Shown: one piece after another, positions 4,725-5,794 of the stretch
How the letters are laid out: each line of letters opens with the position of its first letter
Position numbering within the stretch: the first letter of the stretch is position 1
Source of the DNA: an uncultured delta proteobacterium
GTDB lineage: Bacteria > RBG-13-61-14 > DRUE01
Assembly: GCA_903930515.1 (NCBI GenBank)
Contig: CAIYYW010000313.1
Location: forward strand, 1 to 47,767
DNA length: 47,767 nucleotides
Reading direction: 5' to 3'
Notes under the pieces: generated by a model
Told to the model about the DNA's origin: nothing
Databases searched by the model: none
What the model saw: the letters and a program-made list of their open reading frames with translations, nothing else
Made by a program: the position numbers and the translations under genes

Positions 4725-4750
4725 GGAGGCTTCGGCCTCCTTTTTGTTTT
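4725..4750 (+). terminator. Intrinsic terminator after rpmA
   Basis: GGAGGC (4725-4730), a TTCG tetraloop (4731-4734) and GCCTCC (4735-4740) are followed by TTTTTGTTTT. This is a textbook factor-independent terminator separating rplU-rpmA from obgE. Confidence 0.92.
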
Positions 4751-4755
4751 ATAAT
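4750..4755 (+). promoter_or_regulatory. -10 box abutting the obgE start (leaderless candidate)
   Basis: A perfect TATAAT ends 7 nt before the obgE ATG at 4763, so transcription would begin at or next to the start codon. It overlaps the tail of the rpmA terminator. No good -35 is visible. The AGGAA between box and ATG is too close to the predicted start site to serve as a leader. Confidence 0.5.
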
Positions 4756-4762
4756 AGGAATA

Positions 4763-5794
4763 ATGAAATTCATAGACCAGGTTGAGATCAAGCTCCAGGC
4801 CGGAGACGGCGGAAACGGATGTATGAGCTTCCGGAGGGAGAAATATGTTCCGTTCGGAGGGCCGGACGGGGGAGACGGTGGCAAGGGCGGGGATGTGATC
4901 CTGGTCGCGGATACGAATCTTCAGACCCTTCTGGACCTGTCCTACCAGCGGAACTACCGGGCCAAGCGAGGCGGGGGCGGCAAAGGCTCGCAGATGAACG
5001 GAAGGGGCGGGGAAGATATGGTGATCCGGTTGCCGGTCGGGTCGGTTATTTATGACGCAGGCAGCAAAGAGATGATCGTGGATTTGGACCGGACGGGCCA
5101 GAGGCTGGTAGTTGCCAAAGGGGGCAAGGGCGGACTGGGCAATATGAATTTCAAGACTTCAATCAACCAGGCGCCCCGTCAGGCGGAGGACGGGGAACCG
5201 GGCGAGGAGAAGAAAATCCGGATTGAGCTGAAGCTGATTGCGGAGGTTGGGATCGTGGGATTTCCCAACGCGGGTAAAAGCACCCTGATCTCGCGGCTGA
5301 GCGCGGCGCGCCCCAAGATCGCGGACTATCCCTTCACCACTTTGGTTCCGAACCTGGGTGTGGTCAAATACGCGGATTATAAAAGTTTTGTGATCGCGGA
5401 CCTTCCGGGCTTGATCAAAGGCGCAAGCCAGGGAGCGGGATTGGGTATCCAGTTCCTGCGGCATATAGAGCGGACCCGGGTTTTGATCCACCTGGTGGAA
5501 TGCACGAGCGAGAACGCGCTCAAGGATATGCGGGTTTTGGAGGCCGAGCTTAATGCCTATGATCCGGGGCTGCTGAATAGGCCGAGGCTGATCGCGCTGA
5601 GCAAGCTGGATTTATGTCCGGAGAAGAAATCCCTGGACAAAAAGCTCAAGTCCATTAAAAAAGCCGGGTTTCAGGCGCTCGCGATCAGCGCGGTGAGCGG
5701 AGCGGGCCTGAAAGAATTAAAGGAATGGGCGGTCTCTCAATTAAAGGCGTTGGAGAAGGCGGGATCGGAAAAGCGGGAGCAGCCGGAGGGATGA
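4763..5794 (+). CDS. obgE: GTPase Obg / CgtA
   Basis: This essential 343-residue GTPase acts in late 50S assembly and stress signalling. The glycine-rich Obg fold occupies the first ~155 residues ([19 protein letters not shown], then [11 protein letters not shown]). The G domain follows with GFPNAGKST (G1), a switch-I TT, DLPGLI (G3) and SKLDL (G4). The protein ends shortly after the G domain, so it lacks the OCT/TGS-like C-terminal extension found in some Obg proteins. It follows the rpmA terminator, and its stop overlaps the proB start. Confidence 0.97.

Follow-up and report, generated by a model that had tools for sequence, protein, structure and literature searches.

Predicted sigma70-type promoters flush with the ATG and a probable mix of leaderless and Shine-Dalgarno-led initiation in an almost unsampled bacterial phylum

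A minority of genes in an almost unsampled bacterial phylum carry predicted sigma70-type promoters that lie flush with the ATG, and their mRNAs are very probably leaderless or near-leaderless, in a mixture with Shine-Dalgarno (SD)-led initiation. A preliminary description of one contig had reported TANNNT boxes shortly before several start codons and proposed a mixed initiation system; this is the best reading of the data and is supported by full promoters, by confinement of the signal to SD-less genes that stand first in their units, and by conservation in orthologues. The leaderless mechanism is already known, and what is new is the lineage carrying it.

Genomes and gene calls

The window – the whole stretch of DNA analysed, 47,767 nucleotides – is contig CAIYYW010000313.1 (contig 313) of G000, a 3.65-Mb genome in 401 contigs. 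The phylum is represented in our collection by three genomes: G000, G001 from the same genus, and G002 from the same order and another family. Gene-level samples were assembled from contig pieces, skewed to longer contigs, and comprise 1.02 Mb of G000 with 783 usable starts and 0.69 Mb of G002. Gene starts in the 1.02 Mb were computed by a dicodon model that takes no account of upstream signals. SD sequences were scored against the usual CCUCC anti-SD, from which the phylum's own 16S 3′ end may differ; the 16S is partial in G002, and none was found in G000 or G001. Identities of the genes led by a TANNNT box (TA-led genes) were taken from Pfam.

Promoter-like boxes in the window

The boxes and associated elements in the window are as follows:

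4725..4750, plus strand: terminator-like hairpin GGAGGC-TTCG-GCCTCC with a T-run, between rpmA and obgE, read from sequence
4750..4755, plus strand: TATAAT box, 7 nt before the obgE ATG at 4763 (Pfam GTP1_OBG)
10544..10549, minus strand: TAGGGT box, 7 nt before the flavoprotein (FMN_red) ATG at 10536
10567..10572, minus strand: flavoprotein −35, TTGACA (6/6 match), 17-nt gap
18299..18304, minus strand: TATAAT box, 6 nt before the SGNH/GDSL hydrolase ATG at 18292, with no good −35 (2/6)
26006..26011, minus strand: TAGGGT box, 8 nt before the ATG at 25997 of a 1590-aa subtilase
26030-26035, minus strand: subtilase −35, TTGAAG (4/6 match), gap of 18
29102..29107, minus strand: TATTAT box, 8 nt before the ATG at 29093 of a 489-aa protein (27624-29093), the repeat protein of the preliminary description
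29125..29130, minus strand: −35 of the 489-aa protein, TTGACA (6/6 match), 17-nt gap
33668..33673, minus strand: TG-extended TAGAAT box, 6 nt before the ispD ATG at 33661, kept in the G001 orthologue
33691..33696, minus strand: ispD −35, TAGAAA (4/6 match), 17-nt gap
40655..40660, minus strand: TACTAT box, 7 nt before the second ATG of argS (40647) and overlapping the first (40656)
40675..40684: palindrome TTTTGCAAAA, containing overlapping TTTGCA −35 sequences for argS (40678-40683, minus strand) and PilZ (40676-40681, plus strand), with a 17-nt gap to each box
40699..40704, plus strand: TAATAT box, 6 nt before the PilZ ATG at 40711

All of the boxes in the original list are present at the spacings given there (obgE TATAAT at 7 nt, SGNH TATAAT at 6, ispD TAGAAT at 6, the repeat protein TATTAT at 8, the second argS ATG TACTAT at 7, the flavoprotein TAGGGT at 7, and PilZ GATAAT at 8 or TATAAT at 3), and the subtilase is an additional case. 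The two PilZ boxes of that list were set aside in favour of TAATAT at 6 nt, which is better placed and has a −35 at 17 nt.

Judged by architecture, two of the candidates are strong: the 489-aa protein, with TTGACA-17-TATTAT-8-ATG, and the flavoprotein, with TTGACA-17-TAGGGT-7-ATG. Placement of the putative flavoprotein promoter argues for ATG 10536 as the start rather than ATG 10560, which would fall inside the promoter, although a GGAGG just after the upstream ATG leaves some doubt. The predicted promoters of ispD (a TG-extended TAGAAT at 6 nt, conserved in G001), argS and PilZ are good cases. argS and PilZ are divergently oriented over 54 bp (40657-40710) and appear to share the palindromic −35; two promoters with a common −35 would compete for one site.

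SGNH and obgE, with perfect TATAAT boxes and no −35, are the weaker candidates. At obgE, the site at the coordinates given in the preliminary description, the TATAAT at 7 nt is indeed there, but it makes a weak example: the best −35 match is 2/6, and the box is absent before obgE in G002, the one genome in which conservation could be judged, the G001 contig beginning within obgE. The terminator-like hairpin after rpmA does suggest that obgE plausibly needs a promoter of its own.

Enrichment before SD-less first genes

In the window alone the excess of boxes is modest and suggestive only: TANNNT lies at 6–8 nt in 6 of the 40 called genes, compared with 0–5 (mean about 1.8) in control windows of equal width. 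The genome-wide comparison with background that had been proposed was run on the 1.02 Mb of G000, and the box is clearly enriched. Among 642 ATG starts there are 57 with TANNNT at 6–8 nt against 25 expected from offsets 10–49 (P = 3e-8), and for SD-less, ATG-starting, unit-first genes the count is 46/146 at 6–9 nt against 9.4 expected (P = 1e-17). SD-less ATG genes that are near-first have the box at 6–9 nt in 5 of 17 (0.9 expected). When the same starts were split by context, no peak was seen in operon-internal genes, in SD-led first genes or in GTG/TTG genes. The earlier observation that box genes mostly lack an SD and are mostly single or first in an operon is confirmed, with the spacing of 6–8 nt given there amended to 6–9 nt.

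Part of the excess is due to the SD-less filter itself, because a TA box that falls in the SD zone pulls a gene's SD score down; spacers 0–5 and 10–14, which share this bias, average about 4 per position, compared with 11.5 at 6–9. The same pipeline gives no signal in 250 kb of E. coli K-12 (1/56 versus 4.6 expected) and does give one in 150 kb of Deinococcus radiodurans MP1 (8/31 versus 1.5 expected). A secondary bump at spacer 1 (11 SD-less first ATG genes in G000) may reflect start calls placed a codon or two too far upstream, as at argS.

A cruder count over whole genomes compares TATAATN6-8ATG with TATAATN12-14ATG. The values are 84 versus 51 in G000 and 103 versus 68 and 54 versus 27 in its two relatives (pooled P = 8e-7), whereas the ratio pooled over 95 other lineages is 1.09. 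G000 taken singly has a q of about 0.07 among 98 genomes and misses the 5% false-discovery cut, so it is the gene-level test that carries the claim. Four genomes from other phyla (G006, G018, G037 and G031) have an equal or stronger bias to 6–8 nt (28 versus 6, 42 versus 16, 39 versus 18, and 40 versus 19, respectively) and may also contain leaderless genes; in G018 the nucleotide following the TATAAT box is usually C.

Promoter architecture and two classes of start

Alignment of the 52 TA-led G000 genes on their boxes reveals T, T and G at 23, 22 and 21 nt upstream of the box, corresponding to a TTGACA-like −35 hexamer at a gap of 16–18 nt with a peak at 17, together with the T and G of an extended −10 at positions −3 and −2 of the box. 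A TTGACA-like −35, a gap of 16–18 nt and a TATAAT-like −10 are found class-wide, with obgE and SGNH as individual exceptions, and on this pattern the boxes are predicted −10 elements of full sigma70-type promoters abutting the ATG.

Promoters were scored with weights set by hand on the box-aligned G000 genes. Strong sites fall at 6–9 nt in 31 of the SD-less first ATG genes of G000, with seven or fewer in any other 4-nt bin, whereas the largest bins for SD-led first genes are at 26–33, i.e. leaders of about 20–27 nt. G002, which had no part in the weights, gives 16 strong promoters at 6–9 and at most 5 per other bin. There are thus two classes of start, one leadered with an SD and the other with the promoter flush with the ATG and no SD.

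Transcription starts about 6–8 nt downstream of a −10 element. With the −10 ending 6–9 nt before the ATG, this usual geometry would have the mRNA begin on the AUG or no more than about 3 nt from it: the housekeeping-sigma (sigma70-type) promoter would direct initiation to the A of the ATG or to a position 1–3 nt upstream of that A, with a box at spacer 9 leaving a leader of 2–3 nt. The mRNAs of TA-led genes would then have an absent or trivial leader and no SD sequence. Their translation would proceed by direct recognition of the 5′-terminal AUG, probably by 70S ribosomes, as 70S ribosomes recognize such an AUG directly in other bacteria (PMC9031893). The remaining genes, including those internal to operons, would use conventional leadered, mostly SD-led initiation.

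TA-led genes number 52 of 783 in G000 (6.6%, or 10.5% of genes that are not operon-internal) and 19 of 523 in G002 (3.6% and 5.0%), with backgrounds of about 10 and about 7 genes, respectively, unsubtracted. Leaderless genes are thus probably a minority of about 4–7% of genes and roughly 5–10% of transcription units, likewise with background unsubtracted.

Conservation in relatives and alternative readings

The relatives were searched with the N-termini of 20 TA-led genes and of 24 SD-led first genes picked at random. With automatic starts, TANNNT is present at 6–10 nt in 13 of the 15 scorable G001 orthologues of TA-led genes, and moving the cca start to the homologous ATG gives 14/15; none of the 14 control orthologues has the box (Fisher 1.8e-6), and the chance rate in this 5-position window of the compared upstream regions is 2.7%. 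The SD behaves oppositely, being kept in 13/14 controls versus 1/15 TA-led orthologues (Fisher 2.9e-6). Ungapped upstream identity between G000 and G001 is only 0.36 for TA-led genes and 0.32 for controls. The TA-led orthologues in G001 have their own −35 at gap 17, and in one the start is GTG. In the more distant G002, polX, mutS and rtcB keep the flush-promoter arrangement; the ispD box, present in G000 and G001, is absent there.

Many of the TA-led genes encode nucleic-acid enzymes by Pfam, including PolX, MutS, RecG, RNase HII, RtcB, FtsJ/RlmE, a polyA/tRNA nucleotidyltransferase and a metallo-beta-lactamase RNase-like protein (on L093, L103, L104, L106, L137, L140, L159 and L052). Two related proteins that begin MARPWRIQ (L155:11217-12167 and L089:23504-24481) are each preceded by a full promoter flush with the ATG, and by eye they look like REP-associated transposases; a mobile gene that brought a leaderless promoter along with it would be portable.

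The promoters could be real while the starts are mis-called or transcription begins inside the gene, with translation driven by a downstream start or an upstream leadered promoter. The start codons are computed, the first ATG of argS or of the flavoprotein gene can fall within the promoter, and the spacer-1 bump hints at starts called too early; such errors, however, would smear the spacing rather than sharpen it at 6–9 nt, and the N-termini of orthologues align with those of the TA-led G000 genes from one and the same ATG, which leaves this reading very unlikely. Chance matches in AT-rich intergenic DNA, picked by eye, are more improbable still: the window count is only modestly above its controls and some of the boxes originally listed match poorly, but the genome-scale peak at exactly 6–9 nt, the −35 at gap 17, the conservation in orthologues and the silence of E. 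coli refute chance for the class, and it is single sites that may be fortuitous. Least probable is an AT-rich non-SD ribosome-binding signal resembling a −10 box, for although such non-canonical sites are known in other bacteria (PMC9581028), operon-internal genes, which lack the box, would be expected to have a ribosome signal as well, and such a signal has no need of a TTGACA-like element 17 nt upstream.

Comparison with known leaderless systems

TA-led genes were found in 207 of 953 bacterial genomes by Zheng et al. (PMC3160421), and a later survey put the share of bacterial species with predicted leaderless transcription at 21.6% (PMC9581028). As elsewhere, the genes described here carry, in excess over background, a −10-like box roughly 10 bp upstream of the start codon; they have no SD and are unit-first and not operon-internal.

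The preliminary description had likened the arrangement to that of Deinococcus and the actinobacteria. The likeness extends to TANNNT at the start in a mixture with SD-led genes, and stops at the promoter itself, since a −35 is present here. In Deinococcus-Thermus, TANNNT likewise lies about 6–7 nt before the ORF, alongside SD-led genes (PMC3160421, PMC12340547); about a third of genes there have the −10 motif, mostly without a classical −35 (PMC12340547), compared with 4–7% here, with a TTGACA-like −35 and a TG. Mycobacterium tuberculosis and M. smegmatis also combine TANNNT at the start codon and no SD with leadered genes (PMC3898074, PMC4633059), but about 22–26% of the genes there are leaderless and TG extensions occur in 7% of TANNNT promoters, whereas TG is common here. 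M. tuberculosis lacks a −35 consensus (PMC3898074), and Mycobacterium uses both ATG and GTG (PMC4633059); here the signal is at ATG, though not many GTG/TTG starts were called and these calls are less reliable. Because a TTGACA-like −35 at 16–18 nt is present in G000 and in the G001 orthologues, unlike the mostly −35-less style of Deinococcus and Mycobacterium, we class these as leaderless genes and not as examples of that promoter style. The TA-led genes of mid-GC bacteria, the Aquificae and Chloroflexi among them (PMC3160421), share a mid-GC genome and an informative box centre, TAtaaT, and the host here is a different and almost unsampled phylum. A search of titles and abstracts found no paper on leaderless genes in candidate phyla or MAGs.

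We suggest tentatively that the phylum may have a leaderless style of its own, in which two-element, often TG-extended sigma70 promoters abut a start that is almost always ATG and a set of genes that includes polX, mutS and rtcB is kept leaderless between families, which would point to selection for leaderless expression and not drift.

Significance

These findings place a deep and almost unsampled phylum among the bacterial groups in which SD-led and leaderless initiation occur together, and indicate that an E. coli-like −35/−10 promoter can sit flush with an ATG. Flush promoters supply a rule by which called gene starts can be corrected in the genomes of this phylum, and genes that are leaderless across species make selection for leaderless status testable by comparative genomics.
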